Shown: positions 884 to 9,316, numbered from the stretch's first letter. The stretch: DNA of 26,178 nt from a virus (IMGVR_UViG_3300037193_000179:1-26178); one strand, 5' to 3'. Made by a program: numbers and translations. The notes: generated by a model not told the origin, from the sequence alone.

Positions 884-2725
884 ATGCCCCGCACCCGCAA
901 GACCGAAGCCGTCATCCCGACGACCTCACTCGTCGCGTCTGCTGTCCGGTACTCCGGCAAGGCCGCGCGCATCTACCGCCCGAACCAGGAGTGGCAGAAG
1001 GAGTGCTACCGGCACTACGAGATTTGCGGTGAGGCCCGCTTCGCCGCCAACTTCTACGGCCACGCTATGAGCCGCGCACGGCTGTACGTCGCTCAGCGGG
1101 GGACGACCGACAAGGTGGACCGGATCGAGGACGGCCCTGCCTTCGAGGTGCTGGCCGACCTGTTCAACGGCAAGGACGGCCAGGCGCAGATGCTCAAGGC
1201 GCTCGGCATCCACCTCACCGTCGCCGGTGAGTGTTACCTCGTCGGCCGGACGGTCAACGGCCAGGACGCCTGGGAGATTGTCTCCATCCTCGAGATGAAG
1301 GTCTCGGGCGACAAGTGGACCATCGTCTACGGCGACGGCATGGCCGACGTGAAGTTGACCGACGAGGACGTGGTCATCCGAATCTGGAACCCGAACCCGG
1401 CCCGCCGCATCGAGGCCGACTCGCCGTTCCGCTCGCTCCTCCCGGTGCTCACCGAGATTGAGTGGGCCACCCGCAACATCTTCGCTCAGACCAGCAGCCG
1501 CCTGGCCGGTGCGGGCATCCTGTTCATGCCGCAGGGCATGTCGTTCCCGAAGCCTCCGCCGCAGGAGGGCCAGGAGCAGACGACCTCCGAGGACGAGTCC
1601 GAGGCCAGCCTGTTCATGCGGACGCTGGCCGACGCCATGCTCACGCCCATCGAGGACCCGTCGTCCCCGAGCGCCATGATCCCCGTCGTCGTGACCGCGC
1701 CCGACGACGCGATCGACAAGGCGAAGTTGATGCACTTCTGGTCCAACTTGGACGAGAAGGTGCTCGAGATGCGGGCCTCCGCGATCAACCGCTTCGCGGA
1801 CGGCATGGACCTCCCGCGCGAGCAGATCATGGGCATGTCCTCGAACAACGGCACCGGGGGCGGGACCAGCAACGGCGTCTCCCACTGGGGCGCGTGGCAG
1901 GTCGAGGAGTCGACCATCAAGATGTTCCTCGAGCCGATGCTCGAGTTGGTGTGCAACGCACTCACGGTCGGCTACCTCCGCCCGCTTCTCGAGGACGGGG
2001 ACGGGGGAGACGAGGAGACCGGGCTCCCCGCCCCGACCCGTGTCGAGGAGTTCATCCACTACGACACCTCGGCGCTGCGCCTGCGCCCGGACCGCTCCGA
2101 GGAGGCGATCAGCCTCTGGGACCGTGGCCTGCTCAAGACGAGCACTCTGCTGCGCGAGACCGGCTTCGACGTGTCCGACATGCCGGACGACACGGAGTTC
2201 AAGACCTGGCTGCTGCGGAAGATCGCCAGCGGGTCGAACACCCCCGAGCAGGTGGCCGCTGCCGCGCGCGCTCTCGGCGTGGACCTGCCGTCCGACACCA
2301 ACCCGGCCGCGCAGCCGAACGAGGCTCCGCCGCCGCCGTCGTTGGAGGACCACCCCTCGCGGCCCAGGACGCCCGGCGAGGACCGGCCGCTGCCCGCACC
2401 GGACGCTGCCGCCGCTGCCGTGCTGGCGGCGTCGGACGCCCTGGTGTGGCGTGCGCTTGAGAGGGCTGGGAACCGCATCCGGCAGAACGCCGGGATCAAG
2501 CCGCCCGGCGTCCCGTCGTACGAGATGCACACGCTCGTGCAGGTCAACGGCACCGCCGACTCGGTGCTGAACGACGCCTGGTCGTGCGCGCCGCAGGTGC
2601 TTGAGGGCATCTGCGACGTGGACACCACAGTTCAGTCACTGAACTCCTACGTGCGTGCCCTGTTCGCTGAGCAGGCCCCGCACACTCGCGACCGGCTGGC
2701 TCGGTGGTTGGAGGCGTCGCGATGA
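884..2725 (+). CDS. Portal protein
   Basis: A 613-residue protein immediately downstream of the terminase, of the size and composition of actinophage portal proteins, which form the dodecameric DNA channel at one head vertex and dock the terminase. Visible features are a YRPNQEWQKECYRHY segment leading to a mixed alpha/beta core, a Gly/Asn/Thr-rich loop (about residues 322-332), then a helical stretch with EEAISLWDRGLLKTSTLLRE, and a Pro-rich low-complexity linker (about 475-510) before the C-terminal part. ATG 884 follows GAGGAGA (874-880). The stop overlaps the next gene as ATGA. Residues 583-587 (VQSLN) are encoded by a copy of the 17-bp palindrome, inserted without breaking the frame. Identity rests on size, position and overall pattern. 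Confidence 0.88.
   Translation: MPRTRKTEAVIPTTSLVASAVRYSGKAARIYRPNQEWQKECYRHYEICGEARFAANFYGHAMSRARLYVAQRGTTDKVDRIEDGPAFEVLADLFNGKDGQAQMLKALGIHLTVAGECYLVGRTVNGQDAWEIVSILEMKVSGDKWTIVYGDGMADVKLTDEDVVIRIWNPNPARRIEADSPFRSLLPVLTEIEWATRNIFAQTSSRLAGAGILFMPQGMSFPKPPPQEGQEQTTSEDESEASLFMRTLADAMLTPIEDPSSPSAMIPVVVTAPDDAIDKAKLMHFWSNLDEKVLEMRASAINRFADGMDLPREQIMGMSSNNGTGGGTSNGVSHWGAWQVEESTIKMFLEPMLELVCNALTVGYLRPLLEDGDGGDEETGLPAPTRVEEFIHYDTSALRLRPDRSEEAISLWDRGLLKTSTLLRETGFDVSDMPDDTEFKTWLLRKIASGSNTPEQVAAAARALGVDLPSDTNPAAQPNEAPPPPSLEDHPSRPRTPGEDRPLPAPDAAAAAVLAASDALVWRALERAGNRIRQNAGIKPPGVPSYEMHTLVQVNGTADSVLNDAWSCAPQVLEGICDVDTTVQSLNSYVRALFAEQAPHTRDRLARWLEASR
2629..2645. promoter_or_regulatory. 17-bp palindrome, copy 2, inside the portal gene
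   Basis: AGTTCAGTCACTGAACT, perfect, central base C. It lies in the last tenth of the portal gene and is read as A-GTT-CAG-TCA-CTG-AAC-T, giving VQSLN. Confidence 0.85.
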
Positions 2726-5418
2726 CCCTCTCCCTCACCCTGAGCCGTGAGGAGTTCGCGGCCAAGCGACGCACGCAGCAGGCGGAGATGGAGGAGGCCC
2801 TCCGTCCGCACGTACGTCGTGCCGTTGACCTGCGCAAGAACACGGACGGGTGGCGGGAACTGCTCAACGTCACCGAGACGCTGTACCGGGAGGCGTACCG
2901 CCAGGAGTACGGCGAGACGCCGATCGACTACCCGCGCGGGTTCCGCCAGGAGATGCTCGACACCCTGCGCAAGACCAAGCGCCGCGACGCTGCCTCGGTC
3001 GAACGGATCGCCACCTGGCTCGCGACCCACATCATCGCCGCCGCCACCGAGCAGGCGGCGCTGGACGACCCCGAGGAGTTGGCGCTCGAGTGGGTGACCA
3101 TGCACGACGACGACGTGCGCCACACCCACCGGGCGGTCGACGGCGTGATCCGGCCCATCGGCATCCCGTTCCGCGTGGGTGGTCACGACATGATGCGGCC
3201 GGGCGACACCTCGGCTCCGATCGAGTTGTGGATCAACTGCCGCTGCACCGTGCGGCCGACGTACTTGGAGGAGGCCCTGGTGGCTGCTGCTGACGAGGAG
3301 AAGGTCTCGACGCTGACGTGCATCGTCGCTGTGCCCAACGCCGAGGACGCGATTCACGCGATCGGTGAGGAGGAGAAGCATGCGACTGTCCTGTTCCTCG
3401 GGGAGTTCGACGGAGACCTCGAGACTGTCAAGGCTGCGACCGAGGGTGTCGCGGCCAGCCTGGTCCCGTTCGAGGCCCAGGTGTCCGGCAACGGTTCCCT
3501 CGGCCCGGACCGCGCGAAGGTCCTGTTCGTAGAGGCCGGGGGCCTGCAGGAGACGCGCGACCGGCTGCTCGACAACGACCTGCTGCGCGAGACACACATG
3601 ACGGCCGACACCCACCCCCACTTCGTCCCCCACGTCACGGTTACGTACGGGGAGGACGCGCCACCGGAGGTCACCGAGGTGGCTTCGATCGCGTTCGATC
3701 GGCTCGCCGTGTGGCACCGTGGTGAGCGTTACGAGTACCCGCTAGGAGGCGGCGAGATGACCCAGCAGACCGACGAGAAGCCCGTCGAGGACGAGGCCCC
3801 CGAGGAGAAGCCCGTGGTCGAGGCTCCCGTCGAGGAGGCCAACGCTGTCCCGTTCTACAGCGTGCTCGCCCCCGAGGGCATCAAGACTGGCGACGGCCGG
3901 AAGTTCCGCGAGGGGTCGCTGACCCACCGCCCGCTGCCGCTGCCGCTGACCTGGCAGAAGATCAGCGACGACGGCCACAAGGGCAACGTCACCGTGGCGA
4001 AGATCGAGCGGGTCGCCAAGGTCGGCAACGAGATGCGGGCCACCGGTCACTTCCTGCAGATTCCCGAGGCCGACGAGGTGGTCGGTCTGGTCGCGGAGTT
4101 CGGGAAGTTCGGCGTCTCCGTCGACGCTGACGACGCCACGTTCGAGGTGAACGAGGACGAGGAGTGCGTGGAGTTCACCCAGGCTCGGGTGTCCTCGGCC
4201 TGCATCGTCTCCATCCCCGCGTTCGCGGAGGCGTTCGTCGCGCTGGGCGAGGCCCCCGAGGACTGGTTCCCCACCGAGGAGGAGCCCGCCGAGGGCGAGG
4301 TCCCGGCCGAGGTCGACACCGACCACGTTGCGCCCGAGGAGGAGGAGGACTCCCTCGCCGCCTCCATCGCGCGCATGCGGTCCCGCGCCGAGTTCGTGGA
4401 CACCGAGGACGGGCCGGGCTGGCTGACCCACCCGGTCGACACCGACCGTCTCCGCGACTACTGGGTGCGCGGTCCGGGCGCGGCCAAGATCAACTGGGGC
4501 ACGCCGGGCGACTTCAACCGGTGCCGGGTCAACGTGGCCGAGTACGTGAAGCCGCAGCACATCAACGGCTACTGCGCGAACCGCCACTACGACGCGCTCG
4601 GCTTCTGGCCGGGTCAGCGCCACGACGGCGAGACGACCCCGTTCGCCGCCGAGGCCCTGGGCGTGGAGGAGGACCAGGCCGAGGCCCTGTCTCTGGTCGC
4701 CGCTGGCGGCGGGTACTGCGCTCCGGCTGAGTGGTTCGAGAACCCCAACCTGACCGAGCCGACCCCGCTCACCGTCACCGACGAGGGCCGGGTGTTCGGG
4801 CACCTCGCGGAGTGGGGCACCTGCCACATCGGGTTCGCGGACCAGTGCGTCACTCCCCCGGAGTCCAAGACCGAGTACGCCTACTTCCTGACCGGCGAGG
4901 TTGCGCTGGACAACGGCAAGCGCGCGCGGTGCGGCAACATCACCATCGGCGGCGGGCACGCCAACCCGCGCCTCGGCATCCGGGCGGCGATCGCGCACTA
5001 CGACAGCACCTCGGCTGCCGTGTGCGACGTGACCTGCGGCCAGGACGAGCACGGCATCTGGCTCGCGGGCTGGGTCCGGCCGGGCGTCTCTGACGAGATG
5101 GTCACCGCGCTCCGGGCGTCCGGGGTGTCCGGCGACTGGCGGAAGGTGGCGGGCAACCTCGAGTTGATCGCCGCCCTGTCGGTCAACGTGCCCGGCTTCC
5201 CGATCCCCCGGCCCCAGGTCGCGGCTTCGGCGGACGGCCAGATCAGCCTCGTTGCGGCGGGCATCGTCCAGCCGAAGGAGGAGCAGGCCCCGGCCACCGC
5301 TGTCGACGTGGAGGCTCTCGCGACTCGGGTGGTCGAGATGCTCACCGAGCGTCAGGCCAACAAGGAGCGCATGGCCGCGCTCGCCATGAAGATCACCCCG
5401 CTGAACAAGGAGGACTGA
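2722..5418 (+). CDS. MuF / 2H phosphoesterase / prohead protease fusion protein
   Basis: An 898-residue multidomain protein starting at ATG 2722, which overlaps the portal stop as ATGA; an upstream in-frame GTG at 2704 is less likely. Domains by eye: (1) MuF head-morphogenesis domain, about 1-185, ending in the W..(D)..VR..H....DG block (124-141) and the NCRC signature (171-174); (2) a 2H phosphoesterase-like domain, about 195-340, with both hallmark HxT motifs, HAT 220-222 and HVT 304-306; (3) a prohead-protease-like domain, about 360-515, with likely catalytic His419 (DDGHKG) and Ser466 (FGVSVD), and a closing IPAFAEAFVAL segment; (4) a DYWVRG..KINWGTPGDF region, about 567-633; (5) a C-terminal region with GHLAEWGTCHIG (693-704). 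MuF/protease fusions are known in actinophages; the protease cleaves scaffold and capsid tails during maturation. The inserted 2H domain is unexpected. A strong internal start at 3757 may also give the protease separately. Confidence 0.85.
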   Translation: MTLSLTLSREEFAAKRRTQQAEMEEALRPHVRRAVDLRKNTDGWRELLNVTETLYREAYRQEYGETPIDYPRGFRQEMLDTLRKTKRRDAASVERIATWLATHIIAAATEQAALDDPEELALEWVTMHDDDVRHTHRAVDGVIRPIGIPFRVGGHDMMRPGDTSAPIELWINCRCTVRPTYLEEALVAAADEEKVSTLTCIVAVPNAEDAIHAIGEEEKHATVLFLGEFDGDLETVKAATEGVAASLVPFEAQVSGNGSLGPDRAKVLFVEAGGLQETRDRLLDNDLLRETHMTADTHPHFVPHVTVTYGEDAPPEVTEVASIAFDRLAVWHRGERYEYPLGGGEMTQQTDEKPVEDEAPEEKPVVEAPVEEANAVPFYSVLAPEGIKTGDGRKFREGSLTHRPLPLPLTWQKISDDGHKGNVTVAKIERVAKVGNEMRATGHFLQIPEADEVVGLVAEFGKFGVSVDADDATFEVNEDEECVEFTQARVSSACIVSIPAFAEAFVALGEAPEDWFPTEEEPAEGEVPAEVDTDHVAPEEEEDSLAASIARMRSRAEFVDTEDGPGWLTHPVDTDRLRDYWVRGPGAAKINWGTPGDFNRCRVNVAEYVKPQHINGYCANRHYDALGFWPGQRHDGETTPFAAEALGVEEDQAEALSLVAAGGGYCAPAEWFENPNLTEPTPLTVTDEGRVFGHLAEWGTCHIGFADQCVTPPESKTEYAYFLTGEVALDNGKRARCGNITIGGGHANPRLGIRAAIAHYDSTSAAVCDVTCGQDEHGIWLAGWVRPGVSDEMVTALRASGVSGDWRKVAGNLELIAALSVNVPGFPIPRPQVAASADGQISLVAAGIVQPKEEQAPATAVDVEALATRVVEMLTERQANKERMAALAMKITPLNKED
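3757..5418 (+). CDS. Possible separate prohead protease from internal in-frame start
   Basis: An in-frame ATG at 3757 is preceded by a full AGGAGG (3744-3749) with a 7-base spacer, one of the best ribosome-binding sites in the window. It falls in the linker between the 2H phosphoesterase domain and the prohead protease domain, just where a stand-alone protease gene would start. The shorter product would have 553 residues with likely catalytic His74 and Ser121. Nested starts in head protease genes are known (lambda C/Nu3 is a classic case, although there the nested product is the scaffold). Whether both forms are made cannot be told from sequence; this may be a relic of a gene fusion that kept its start signal. 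Confidence 0.5.
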   Translation: MTQQTDEKPVEDEAPEEKPVVEAPVEEANAVPFYSVLAPEGIKTGDGRKFREGSLTHRPLPLPLTWQKISDDGHKGNVTVAKIERVAKVGNEMRATGHFLQIPEADEVVGLVAEFGKFGVSVDADDATFEVNEDEECVEFTQARVSSACIVSIPAFAEAFVALGEAPEDWFPTEEEPAEGEVPAEVDTDHVAPEEEEDSLAASIARMRSRAEFVDTEDGPGWLTHPVDTDRLRDYWVRGPGAAKINWGTPGDFNRCRVNVAEYVKPQHINGYCANRHYDALGFWPGQRHDGETTPFAAEALGVEEDQAEALSLVAAGGGYCAPAEWFENPNLTEPTPLTVTDEGRVFGHLAEWGTCHIGFADQCVTPPESKTEYAYFLTGEVALDNGKRARCGNITIGGGHANPRLGIRAAIAHYDSTSAAVCDVTCGQDEHGIWLAGWVRPGVSDEMVTALRASGVSGDWRKVAGNLELIAALSVNVPGFPIPRPQVAASADGQISLVAAGIVQPKEEQAPATAVDVEALATRVVEMLTERQANKERMAALAMKITPLNKED

Positions 5419-5692: not shown

Positions 5693-5918
5693 ACCGGCGA
5701 CGTACCGCCTTGGCCGGGTTGGGGACGAACCAAGTAGCACCGCTGACGACGACCGCCGCCAGGATGACCATGAACCACTCGGAGGCGCTCATGCCCTCGA
5801 TGGTCTCGCGGCCCTGCAACTCGAAGTAGAGGGCGGCGAGGAAGGACAGGACACCGGCGACGATCGCCTTGTACGGCTGAGTCGGAGTCGGGGGCGGGGG
5901 AGTGACCGGAGTGCTCAT
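5691..5918 (-). CDS. Holin-like small membrane protein
   Basis: A 75-residue protein starting MSTPVTPPPPTPTQPYK, a Pro/Thr-rich N-terminus, then two hydrophobic segments (about residues 19-35 and 49-65) separated by a charged loop, and a basic tail ending KAVRRR. This is the layout of a two-span holin, which would form the membrane lesion that lets the endolysin reach the cell wall. The start ATG (complement of 5916-5918) overlaps the stop of the upstream nuclease gene as ATGA, so it is translationally coupled as the third gene of the cassette. Holins are too diverse to name from sequence alone; a role in lysis is inferred from size, topology and proximity to the amidase gene. Confidence 0.75.
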   Translation of the reverse strand: MSTPVTPPPPTPTQPYKAIVAGVLSFLAALYFELQGRETIEGMSASEWFMVILAAVVVSGATWFVPNPAKAVRRR

Positions 5919-6673
5919 GCGCGTGCTCGCTTTCTCGGGCGGAGAGTGACCTCGTGGAACGGGTGGTCGGAGTGCTCGGGCTTGACGAACTTCTGGCCCA
6001 GGTACACGAAGTCGTCCGGGTGCCAGAGTACGTACTCGATGGGTCGGGCGTCACCCCTCGGACGCGGGAGCAACTTCTTGTCGAACTGGCAGATCAGGCC
6101 GGAGCGGCGGCGGAAGGCCCGCTGCGGGGACCACCACCACGCCTTCGCGCTGCGCTTCATCCAGGCCCAGTTCAGGTCGCCCATGACGACGACCTTGTAG
6201 CCCTGCTTGCGCAGGCGGTTCACCCAGCGGGTGACCTCCTTGGTCGCCTCGATGAACTCGTCCACGCGGGGCAACTTCCACGGCGTGTTCTTGTCCTTCT
6301 GGACGTGGCTGTTGAAGTGCGTGTTGATGACGGCGAACTTCTCGTCACCGATCTGGAACTTGAGGCAGACTGCCGTGCGCTCCGGGGAGTCACCGATGCC
6401 GTCGCTGACGGTGCGCCGCTCGAAGTCGATCACCCGCACGTCGTCGTGGATGAGCACCGGGTTGTTGTGCCGGTTCCCCGGTCCCGCCCCGAACGACACG
6501 TAGCCCTTGCCGGGTGCGATCCGCTCGATCGCCTCCGCGAAGTTCCGCGCCTCGTTCAGCCCGACGACCTCCGCGCCCTGGCTCAGCAGTTTGCGGAGGT
6601 CCGACATGGCCTTCGGGTTCTCCCGCCAGATGTTGGCGGTGATGAAGTTCAGCACCTCTGCGCGGTCGCTCAC
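5915..6673 (-). CDS. Endonuclease/exonuclease/phosphatase-family protein
   Basis: A 252-residue protein carrying the set of residues expected for this metal-dependent phosphoesterase fold: an early FITANIW strand with Asn14, LNEAR with the metal-binding Glu41, NTHFNSH with His119, MGDLNW with Asp166 and Asn168, and the closing SDHPFHEV with Asp236-His237. Family members hydrolyse phosphodiester or phosphomonoester bonds in DNA, RNA, lipids or nucleotides; the substrate here is unknown. The start is GTG (complement of 6671-6673), overlapping the amidase stop, and its end overlaps the holin-like start. Being sandwiched between endolysin and holin genes is odd: it may act in host DNA breakdown or phage release, or be a passenger. 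No signal peptide is visible, so it probably acts in the cytoplasm. Confidence 0.85.
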   Translation of the reverse strand: MSDRAEVLNFITANIWRENPKAMSDLRKLLSQGAEVVGLNEARNFAEAIERIAPGKGYVSFGAGPGNRHNNPVLIHDDVRVIDFERRTVSDGIGDSPERTAVCLKFQIGDEKFAVINTHFNSHVQKDKNTPWKLPRVDEFIEATKEVTRWVNRLRKQGYKVVVMGDLNWAWMKRSAKAWWWSPQRAFRRRSGLICQFDKKLLPRPRGDARPIEYVLWHPDDFVYLGQKFVKPEHSDHPFHEVTLRPRKRARA

Positions 6674-7503
6674 TGGTCGAGGCCCCCCAGCACCGAGCGG
6701 ATGCCCGCCTCGACAGCGGCCTGCACCTCGACTCGGGTGATGCAGTCCGGGTTCTCTCCCACGGGGATCGCGCCGATCTGCGCCAGGATCGCGTCACGCA
6801 CACGGTCGGCGTTGGCGGCGATCGCCTTCTTGATGTTGCCCTCGTCGTTGAGCAGTCGCCGGAGCACGGCGTTGAGGGGCTGCGTCTCGTCGTCGGCAGC
6901 GCCCTTGCCCTTCGTGTCCACCACGATGCGGGCGTTGCCGACCTCCTCGCGGATGATCTTGCGGAGGTCGTCCAGTTCAGCCATGTCGTACTCGTCTCCC
7001 TTGAGTCGGGGGATCACCGCGTCGGTGACCTGCTTGATGCGGAGAGGACCAGGGCAAATCTTCGCCTGGTTGGTCCACTTGCCGGGCGACCCGAACTGAA
7101 TGTGCCACCCGATGCCTGCGCCGTCCCACTGTCGGGCGAGCCGGAGCGGAATGTCGTGCTTCGTGTTCAGCCACAGCAGCAGTCGCACGATCGTGTTGAT
7201 CTGCTCCGGCGTCCAGGGCTCGTACCCCGTGCCCTGCGTCTCGATCGAGATAGCGAACGGGTTCGCCAGGTAGTTCGCGTCGGCCTCCCATGACGTGTCC
7301 CGGTACTGGAACAGCGTGCCGTCCTTGGCGATGTGGAAGTGCGACTCGATGCCGCCAGAGCGGCCGTCGAAGTACGGCCCGAGGTTGTAGACGTTGCCGC
7401 CGTCCGAGTGGAGGATCGCCAGCCTGGGCCTGATGCGAGGGTCACTTGCAGGCGGCGGGATGAGCCACCGCTTGTCAGCGAAAGGGCAGAGAGCCATGCC
7501 CAC
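6670..7503 (-). CDS. Endolysin: N-acetylmuramoyl-L-alanine amidase (PGRP/Amidase_2 type)
   Basis: A 277-residue endolysin that should cut the bond between N-acetylmuramic acid and L-alanine in peptidoglycan. The N-terminal catalytic domain (about residues 20-165) shows the zinc ligands of the family: His32 in AILHSDGG, His133 in IGWHIQFG and Cys149 in AKICPG, with ESHFHIAKDGTLFQY and AISIETQG between them. The C-terminal third (about 170-277) is charged and helical, with no recognised cell-wall-binding repeat; it may be a coiled coil or a novel binding domain. I chose GTG (complement of 7501-7503), preceded on its strand by GAGAGGGG; an ATG two codons later is an alternative. First gene of the minus-strand cassette, reading away from the capsid gene. 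Confidence 0.9.
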   Translation of the reverse strand: MGMALCPFADKRWLIPPPASDPRIRPRLAILHSDGGNVYNLGPYFDGRSGGIESHFHIAKDGTLFQYRDTSWEADANYLANPFAISIETQGTGYEPWTPEQINTIVRLLLWLNTKHDIPLRLARQWDGAGIGWHIQFGSPGKWTNQAKICPGPLRIKQVTDAVIPRLKGDEYDMAELDDLRKIIREEVGNARIVVDTKGKGAADDETQPLNAVLRRLLNDEGNIKKAIAANADRVRDAILAQIGAIPVGENPDCITRVEVQAAVEAGIRSVLGGLDQ

Positions 7504-7681
7504 ACGCTACCCCTCTCGGGGGGAGTCAGCCGAGACTCGCCGAAGTTCAGTGACTGAACTACTACCCCCACCGGGGGGTCATGTGTGTATGGTTGCGAAC
7601 AGCACGTCCCAGTGGCCTTGGTGCCCGGTGACTCACACGCAGCCCGTGATGACGGAACCACTAGCCACCGAGGAGCATCCC
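7504..7681. promoter_or_regulatory. Divergent control region between endolysin and capsid genes
   Basis: A 178-base gap between the first gene of the minus-strand cassette and the capsid gene. Because the upstream plus-strand block ends in a bidirectional terminator and 1.8 kb of opposite-strand genes follows, both the endolysin cassette and the capsid operon probably need a promoter here (inference). It contains palindrome copy 4, a C/G hairpin (ACCCCC 7564-7569, GGGGGT 7574-7579), and TATGGT (7588-7593), a possible -10 for the capsid side without a good -35. The capsid ribosome-binding site GAGGAG is at 7670-7675. Confidence 0.5.
7544..7560. promoter_or_regulatory. 17-bp palindrome, copy 4, in the divergent region
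   Basis: AGTTCAGTGACTGAACT, perfect, central base G on plus, followed by AC. It lies about 40 bases upstream of the endolysin start and 122 bases upstream of the capsid start. This is the copy best placed to act as a classical operator on two divergent promoters. Confidence 0.85.
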
Positions 7682-9316
7682 GTGGACCAGTTCAAGGAGA
7701 TGAGCACCGAGGACCTGAACGGTCTCCGGGGCGAGAAGTACCAGGCGATCCAGGCGCTGTTCGCGCTCGAGGCCCCCACTGCCGCGCAGGTCACCGAGGC
7801 CGAGGCTCTCGGCGCTGACCTCGAGGCGATCGACTCCATCCTCACCGAGCGCGCCGCCGAGGCTCAGGCCCAGGCCGACAAGTTCGCCGCGCTCAAGACC
7901 AAGTTCTCGGAGCAGCCCGCCGAGGAGGGCGACGAGGAGGAGGTCGAGGAGGAGGAGTCCACCGAGGACCCCCACGACCCGGCCACCGCCGAGCCCGCCG
8001 AGGAGCGCAACGAGACGCCCACCCCGCAGGCTCGCAGCCGCTCCGTGCAGCGCCTCGCCAAGCGCACTCCGCGCCCGGCCGCTCCTGCCGCCGAGGGCAC
8101 CGGCCCGGTGACCATCACCGCTGCCGCCGACGTTCCCGGCTTCTCGACCGGCAAGAAGATCGAGGGCATGGCGGAGTTGGCGAAGGCCGCGCTCAACCGC
8201 ATGAAGGGCTTCACTCCTCCGAGCGGTGACGGCTCTCGCGAGGACCTGCAGAAGTTCGGCGTCGCCGCGCTGTCCCTGGACTACGCGGACGAGTTCACCA
8301 TCGACCGGGGCACCGACGACATGGAGGTTCTCCTCCGTGCCGCCAACGAGGGTCGCCTCAAGTCCGACCAGGGCGAGGGCTCTCTCGTCGCGGCCGGTGG
8401 CTGGTGCGCTCCGAGCGAGACGCTCTACGACCTGCAGGCCGACGAGTCGCTCGACGGCATCCTGTCGGTGCCCGAGGTCAACGTGAAGCGCGGCGGCATC
8501 CGCTACACCCAGGGGCCGCAGTTCGCGGACTTCTACGCCAACGCGGGCTTCATCCAGACCGAGGCCCAGGCGATCGCCGGGACCACGAAGCCCTGCTACG
8601 AGGTCGACTGCCCCGACTTCGAGGAGGTTCGTCTCGACGCGGTGGGCGTCTGCATCAAGGTGCCGATCCTCACCAACGCGGCGTACCCGGAGTTGGTGCA
8701 GCGGTTCACCTCCGGCACGCTGATCGCGCACCAGCACATGGTGAACGCCAACGTGATCGGCCGCATGGTCACGATCGCGGGCGCGGCCCGGTCCTTCACC
8801 GGCATGGGCTCCACCGTGGACGACACGCTCGAGGCTCTCGAGTTGGTCGCGATGCAGCGTCGGCAGAAGTACCGCCTGGCGTTCAACCGCTCGCTCGAGG
8901 TCGTCGTGCCGTTCTGGGTCAAGGGCGCGATCCGCGCTGACCTGGCCCGCCGCAACGGCCAGGACGCGGCTGCCGTCACCGACCAGCAGATCAACTCGTA
9001 CTTCACCTCGCGCAACCTGCAGGTGTCGTTCGTGTACGACTGGCAGGTGCTGGACGAGACCGCCGAGGTCTACCCGGCCACCTTCCAGGCGCTGGTCTAC
9101 CCGGCTGGCACCTTCGTGAAGGGCACCTCCGACGTGATCAACCTGTCGGCGGTCTACGACGCTGCGTCCCTGGCGCAGAACGTCTACACGGGCCTGTTCA
9201 TGGAGCAGGGCCTGCTGGTCGCGAAGATGCAGTACGACGCGGACCTCGTGACGCTGCCGATCTGCAACGCCGGTCAGCGTGGTGCCCTCAACATCGAGTG
9301 CGCCCCCGCCGTCTGA
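7682..9316 (+). CDS. Major capsid protein with scaffold-like N-terminal domain
   Basis: A 544-residue protein. Residues 1-65 (starting MDQFKEMSTEDLNGLRG) form an Ala/Glu-rich probable coiled coil, followed by a very acidic linker (EEGDEEEVEEEE, about 80-95) and a basic stretch with TPQARSRSVQRLAKRTPRP. This resembles the removable scaffolding (delta) domain of HK97-type capsids. The remainder, from about residue 155, looks like the capsid fold, with GWCAPSETLYDL, QTEAQAIAGTTKPCYEV and a long C-terminal part rich in hydrophobic strands. I chose GTG 7682 because GAGGAG (7670-7675) lies at the right distance; in-frame ATGs at 7589 and 7649 lack a convincing site. The protease needed for maturation would be the product encoded at 2722-5418, separated from it by the inverted cassette. 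Confidence 0.9.
   Translation: MDQFKEMSTEDLNGLRGEKYQAIQALFALEAPTAAQVTEAEALGADLEAIDSILTERAAEAQAQADKFAALKTKFSEQPAEEGDEEEVEEEESTEDPHDPATAEPAEERNETPTPQARSRSVQRLAKRTPRPAAPAAEGTGPVTITAAADVPGFSTGKKIEGMAELAKAALNRMKGFTPPSGDGSREDLQKFGVAALSLDYADEFTIDRGTDDMEVLLRAANEGRLKSDQGEGSLVAAGGWCAPSETLYDLQADESLDGILSVPEVNVKRGGIRYTQGPQFADFYANAGFIQTEAQAIAGTTKPCYEVDCPDFEEVRLDAVGVCIKVPILTNAAYPELVQRFTSGTLIAHQHMVNANVIGRMVTIAGAARSFTGMGSTVDDTLEALELVAMQRRQKYRLAFNRSLEVVVPFWVKGAIRADLARRNGQDAAAVTDQQINSYFTSRNLQVSFVYDWQVLDETAEVYPATFQALVYPAGTFVKGTSDVINLSAVYDAASLAQNVYTGLFMEQGLLVAKMQYDADLVTLPICNAGQRGALNIECAPAV

Follow-up and report, generated by a model that had tools for sequence, protein, structure and literature searches.

A 2H phosphoesterase domain in an exchangeable slot of a MuF-protease head protein, a candidate packaged counter-defence enzyme

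The window analysed here, a stretch of 26,178 nucleotides from a virus (IMGVR_UViG_3300037193_000179, positions 1-26178), encodes on its plus strand a fusion protein of 898 amino acids (aa) (2722..5418), in which a MuF-like head morphogenesis domain, a 2H phosphoesterase domain, a prohead protease domain (ProA) and two further domains (D3 and CTD) follow one another. The locus raises the question why a protein of head assembly should carry a phosphoesterase, and on what the enzyme would act. The first-pass annotation had proposed that a 2H domain carried with a head protein could be delivered and then degrade host nucleotide signals or repair RNA, which is a reasonable inference and one already in the literature for 2H-MuF and 2H-portal fusions (PMC5512222, PMC9503650). 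Our own reading, to which we give a rough probability of 0.4, is that the 2H domain would be an accessory passenger of a head-assembly polyprotein, being packaged, injected, and hydrolysing an immune nucleotide messenger in the next host.

Identity of the 2H domain and its exchange in the slot

The 2H domain comprises aa 193-345 (3298..3756, plus strand), in the place given by the first-pass annotation and slightly longer than the span proposed there (3310-3740). It matches the Pfam family PF13563 (2_5_RNA_ligase2) with an E-value of 5.6e-10 and 39.9 bits (cut-off, 27), and 76 of 77 relatives match the same family at E 0.01 or better. The region also matches PHROG 2659, 'RNA ligase' (7.6e-14); 'RNA ligase' was rejected as a gene name, since what is matched is a 2H domain and no nucleotidyltransferase ligase. 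Many head genes with 2H bear this misnomer although they encode a phosphodiesterase, e.g. Kithara gp23, Phlop gp17, EMoore gp13 and CricKo gp6.

Both catalytic motifs, HAT (aa 220-222; 3379..3387, plus strand) and HVT within PHVT (aa 304-306; 3631..3639, plus strand), are found where the first-pass annotation had placed them, and are invariant in relatives. An alignment of 23 diverse sequences leaves P16, H31, T33, V78, P114, H115 and T117 as the only invariant residues, i.e. the two HxT motifs and three others. Among 103 distinct relatives, the four catalytic residues (H/T/H/T) are kept in 102, 102, 103 and 103 sequences, respectively, the lone exception being a distant locus that is probably misaligned; they are also kept in all 38 distinct relatives that were collected without a PHxT search pattern, at a median identity to the window domain of 30%. 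An AlphaFold2 model, computed from an alignment of 77 sequences from the window and virus contigs, predicts the two-lobed 2H fold (mean predicted local distance difference test score, pLDDT, 90.2; predicted template modelling score, 0.86). Its closest solved structures are a Thermus protein (1iuh, Z 14.3), YjcG (13.1), the Arabidopsis cyclic phosphodiesterase (12.9), Usb1 (12.8) and LigT (12.3), followed by the phosphodiesterases of rotavirus VP3 (11.9) and phage BCSR5 (11.2), Acb1 (7t26, 10.4) and the penguinpox cyclic GMP-AMP (cGAMP) phosphodiesterase (9.8). The assignment as a 2H phosphoesterase-like domain thus held in family match, predicted fold and conservation of the motifs. Invariant HxT motifs at a median identity of 30% are the pattern of a working enzyme, and the 2H domain is likely a catalytically intact phosphodiesterase.

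The order of domains, with the 2H domain inserted between MuF and prohead protease, was also described correctly: the protease part resembles T4 gp21 (5jbl, Z 10.4) and the herpesvirus assemblins (Z about 8), those of pseudorabies virus and varicella-zoster virus at about 8.4 (4v08, 8.4). How firmly the 2H domain belongs in this position was surveyed in 123 proteins from named phages and virus contigs that hold MuF and protease in one chain. In 75 of these, a 2H domain fills the gap between MuF and protease (169-356 aa); the other 48 (about 40%) lack it and have a gap of 19-128 aa, mostly a short acidic linker, with three exceptions that carry an intein-like insert. Mapped on a quick tree of 84 of the 123 fusions, built from the MuF, protease and C-terminal domains with the 2H domain excluded, the presence of 2H changes 16 times, a count that is soft in its exact value, and at least 12 gains or losses are forced by well-supported branches. 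For example, a 2H-bearing locus (L035) and one without 2H (L139) are sisters with a support of 100 and end branches of about 0.1.

The domain also occurs in other arrangements. It is a separate gene between the protease and capsid genes in Gordonia phage Phlop, follows the protease domain within one protein in a Micromonospora plasmid record and a Nocardia contig, and lies beside the terminase in CricKo and Tanis; a tree of the 2H domains groups them broadly by arrangement. Judged from these comparisons, the 2H domain is dispensable for head building, because it is gained and lost in the slot and variously placed in the head module, yet it stays with the head genes. Its repeated gain and loss, taken together with the invariant HxT motifs, argue for an accessory enzyme whose catalysis is under selection, and against a part of head architecture.

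Other insertions and enzymes were observed in the same slot and modules. Two loci without 2H carry another small segment in the slot (RNAIQAIGRAKDPAKAKAHIRSRKSSLG in L122, a similar one in L112), and a segment like these adjoins the 2H domain of L110. The MuF domains of L142, L143 and L144 are apparently interrupted at their invariant NCRC motif by an intein-like stretch of about 260 aa. Gordonia phage EMoore encodes a HIT-family nucleotide-binding protein (PF01230, 6e-10; L026 2988-3350) directly behind its MuF gene, with a 2H domain in the same head module, and the MuF protein of Phlop is annotated as an ADP-ribosyltransferase fusion; nucleotide enzymes thus seem to accumulate in such head modules. 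Gordonia phages with MuF and protease as separate genes (L018 1268-3298; L026 634-2988) have MuF proteins of 677-785 aa, which extend several hundred residues beyond the MuF match.

Candidate cutting sites and a proposed route into the next host

The prohead protease domain (aa 372-520; 3835..4281, plus strand) is supported by structural match and conservation. Its Ser466 (4117-4119) is invariant and His419 (3976-3978) nearly so; the Pfam family Peptidase_S78 is matched by three of 31 members (best E, 0.016) and not by the window protein. A short motif, [LI][TV]A[AS][AG], recurs in the interdomain linkers. It was chosen by eye on the same data in which it was counted, with shuffled sequences as control, and is present in 29 of 45 MuF-to-2H linkers (0.8 in shuffled sequences; 41 of 45 versus 6.6 in a relaxed form), in 51 of 72 D3-to-CTD linkers (3.5 shuffled), and in 69 of 84 stretches from CTD to the end of the protein (6.3 shuffled), and it occurs at about chance or lower within MuF, ProA, D3 and CTD. 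An unbiased count of 4-mers in the linkers gave LVAA, SLVA, LVAS and LTAA among the top words, behind those that mark where D3 begins.

Three candidate protease sites were located in the window protein, each inside or bordering a stretch with pLDDT under 50 (all plus strand): LVAAA in the disordered MuF/2H linker (aa 186-190, 3277..3291; pLDDT under 50 at aa 187-194), SLVAAG between D3 and CTD (aa 657-662, 4690..4707; at aa 636-663), and SLVAAG after CTD (aa 842-847, 5245..5262; at aa 833-860). The motif is also present in 78 of 78 distinct homologues of the major capsid protein (14 of 78 when shuffled), mostly as ITAAADVPGF and SLVAAGGWCAP, and as ITAAA (8114-8128) and LVAAG (8384-8398) in that of the window; the major capsid protein is likely the main substrate of the fused protease. 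The candidate motif resembles (V/L/I)-x-A/S, at which assemblins cut; the T4 gp21 and SPN3US gp245 proteases cut after Glu motifs. A search of solved structures with the major capsid protein, as single sequence and as profile, gave nothing at the thresholds used, and two capsid structure papers give no cleavage site for this capsid family. The enrichment of the motif supports, rather than shows, self-cutting at these candidate sites by a fused protease of the gp21/assemblin type.

The route that we propose begins with the catalytically equipped 2H fold, as predicted from sequence and model, in a flexible slot between MuF and prohead protease, a passenger that by comparison was often gained and lost while its host protein persisted, and that kept its catalytic residues whenever present. 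As part of the MuF/protease protein it would enter the procapsid, where the fused protease may cleave the chain at linker sites of the form [LI][TV]A[AS]/[AG], at minimum between MuF and 2H, a step for which the motif counts provide statistical support. The enzyme would then be retained in the head, enter the next host alongside the DNA, and presumably hydrolyse an immune second messenger (cyclic di- or trinucleotides like those of the cyclic-oligonucleotide-based antiphage signalling system, CBASS, or related oligonucleotides) ahead of cell death. More tentatively, the head polyprotein might be a self-cutting one with an exchangeable enzyme slot, in which cleavage at [LI][TV]A[AS]/[AG] sites found both in its linkers and in the major capsid protein frees a counter-defence phosphodiesterase inside the procapsid, or parts it from MuF, and thereby couples the arming of the particle to capsid maturation; we hold this to be possible and somewhat doubtful.

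Substrate and alternative explanations

For the substrate, the profile of the 2H domain was compared with solved structures, of which the penguinpox cGAMP phosphodiesterase ranked top (E 9e-6) and Acb1 was weak (0.035), the resemblance being weak overall. The Pfam family Acb1 (PF23474) is matched by eight of the 77 members (best E, 4.7e-5) and the family LigT_PEase by 41 of the 77. Seventeen complete phages with this 2H domain had no recognisable Rnl2-type ligase, RtcB, KptA or AAA_33/polynucleotide kinase (PNK)-like kinase, in searches whose positive controls matched; a search for T4-type Rnl1 lacked a positive control and its result was not used. A route of RNA repair encoded by the phage is thus not apparent in these 17 genomes. 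Several of the relatives compared belong to cluster EG, other phages of which encode the CBASS sponge Acb2 (PMC13348362); this suggests that the phage group is under CBASS-type pressure. A nucleotide signal of the immune system is the leading choice of substrate, and an unproven one.

Several observations weigh against a packaged enzyme that acts on immune messengers. The window 2H domain has no match to Pfam Acb1 at E 0.01, and LigT, Usb1, the plant cyclic phosphodiesterase and rotavirus VP3 reach structural Z-scores equal to or above that of Acb1, so the fold cannot discriminate substrates; Z-scores were rejected as a guide to the substrate, 2H folds being too alike. The candidate motif runs counter to the linker trend within the 2H domain (16 of 45 versus 3.1 shuffled), is present in just 12 of 45 linkers on the C-terminal side of 2H (relaxed form, 21 of 45 versus 7.8), and is missing between 2H and protease in the window, where cutting would therefore part MuF from a 2H-protease piece and leave 2H joined to the protease. 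In better-known phages, protease pieces exit the head; free release of 2H in the window is not claimed. The choice of the motif by eye also counts here, and in the capsid protein the motif may be structural rather than a cutting site.

The missing release site is consistent with a different explanation, in which the 2H domain already works in the cell that produces the particles. Head proteins can trigger CBASS, and an interaction of a prohead protease with a CBASS sensor is reported (PMC12409349); an enzyme tied to the prohead protease would be an antidote to late head proteins at the origin of the trigger. The 2H domain is produced with the late head genes, freestanding versions still adjoin protease, capsid or terminase genes, and the Acb2 sponge of other EG phages fits as well; however, for this purpose a gene of its own, such as that of Acb1 in T4, would suffice without a MuF fusion, and phages of this group have no known immune trigger. 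We regard action in the producing cell as rather unlikely. Action on RNA ends would place the enzyme nearer to its best structural matches, which are LigT/ThpR-like enzymes and Usb1, and to LigT_PEase, whose matches far exceed those to Acb1: the 2H domain would open 2',3'-cyclic phosphates, or trim or cleave like Usb1, and so repair or damage RNAs of host or phage that defence nucleases have cut. A role as RNase was proposed by Iyer et al. 2017 from the parallel with MuF-PBECR fusions (PMC5512222). The lack of recognisable ligase, RtcB, KptA and PNK-like genes in the 17 complete phages speaks against repair, although host enzymes might finish it, and we consider an RNA-end substrate unlikely.

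It is very improbable, finally, that the 2H domain serves the head protein in structure or binding, e.g. by holding RNA, nucleotides or the protease in place, and that its chemistry is incidental. Such a role would fit its position in a type of head protein that is essential, and its place beside head genes in most loci, but this explanation is already strained by the roughly two-fifths of fetched fusions that do without 2H, by the 12 or more gains and losses on the tree, and by catalytic H and T residues that are constant while the rest drops to about 30% identity. Because of this combination of slot and invariance, a conflict enzyme agrees better with the data than an architectural part.

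The idea of a 2H-MuF fusion with an injected counter-defence function was published in 2017 and 2022, and our interpretation is not new in kind. New are the repeated in-and-out history of 2H in the slot, the 17 complete 2H phages without RNA ligase, KptA or PNK genes, and the concentration of the [LI][TV]A[AS][AG] motif, as candidate protease site, in interdomain linkers and the major capsid protein; the first and the last of these, i.e. the history and the hypothesis of cutting sites, merit follow-up. If the packaged-enzyme reading is true, several actinophage groups hold a ready-made anti-immune enzyme within their capsid-maturation machinery, and such enzymes are hidden in proteins labelled 'capsid maturation protease', 'portal' or 'RNA ligase'. 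Natural pairs of close relatives with and without 2H, which result from its frequent gain and loss, can be used for tests of counter-defence, and the motif predicts the positions of protease cuts for mass spectrometry.

Genomic setting and comparison with known systems

The window, a virus fragment of 26 kb, contains a module of head and tail genes that comprises the end of a terminase gene, portal, fusion protein, major capsid protein, and further head and tail genes. The portal gene (884..2725, plus strand; PHROG 776, 8e-138) ends in a stop codon that is overlapped by the start of the open reading frame of the fusion protein. The MuF-like domain (aa 1-186; 2722..3279, plus strand) has an invariant WINCRC-type motif and matches PHROG 2468 and 3517 (1e-17 and 4e-16; head morphogenesis, 1.4e-17), and its match to PF04233 (E 9e-5, 23.6 bits) lies under the cut-off of 29.6. 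D3 is a small conserved domain (aa 570-640; 4429..4641, plus strand; PHROG 6439, 1.3e-23), and CTD is a conserved head-protein domain (aa 668-832; 4723..5217, plus strand) for which PHROG 18402, 'head maturation protease', was the sole match in the searches made. The major capsid protein follows at 7649..9316 (plus strand; PHROG 777, 6.5e-142). Between fusion protein and capsid protein, two minus-strand genes encode an enzyme of the endonuclease/exonuclease/phosphatase family (5915-6673; PF03372, 2.2e-9) and an N-acetylmuramoyl-L-alanine amidase (6670-7503; PF01510, 1.3e-13).

The closest named relatives of the fusion protein are from actinobacterial phages, i.e. Arthrobacter phages MellowYellow, Beagle and Tank, Microbacterium phages of cluster EG, and Curtobacterium phages, with 31-42% protein identity across most of its length. 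A genome scan with the full-length profile found no prokaryotic relatives, and a scan with the 2H profile found six distant ones. The window also contains nine copies of a 15-bp near-palindrome, GTTCAGTSACTGAAC, which differ solely in the centre base and lie at 470, 2630, 5677, 7545, 11979, 13815, 17937, 21015 and 26046, scattered across the head and tail genes (chance expectation, 0.63 matches in a search with three mismatches). It was not found in any other locus fetched, and the copies are perhaps repressor or stoperator-like sites of the window phage.

Among known systems, the 2H-MuF and 2H-portal fusions for which packaging, injection and action on RNA or immune nucleotides were proposed (Iyer et al. 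2017, PMC5512222; Iyer et al. 2022, PMC9503650) share with the window the fusion of 2H to MuF, whereas the window polyprotein has candidate cut sites and holds its 2H domain between MuF and a prohead protease; the order MuF-2H-protease is not named in the accessible parts of the text of these two papers. The same gene place and fusion are found in the actinophage MuF-like/capsid maturation protease fusions of cluster EG and others (PMC7302621), which differ in that records label them protease, portal or RNA ligase, and for which the accessible part of that paper does not mention a 2H domain. Acb1, the anti-CBASS nuclease (PMC9117128), has the 2H fold and the HxT/HxT tetrad in common with the window domain, but is small and freestanding and defines a Pfam family that the window protein does not match. 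The avipoxvirus cGAMP phosphodiesterase (PMC11410667; 9bkq, 9ciw), the best profile match among solved structures, shares the family-typical W.PHVT.GY stretch; it is freestanding, however, comes from an animal virus, and has a structural Z-score below those of LigT-like enzymes. T4 gp21 and SPN3US gp245 (PMC10052503) are encoded by separate genes, in contrast to the single polyprotein and different candidate motif of the window, but they share the protease fold and set a precedent for the removal of propeptides from internal head proteins that enter the host.
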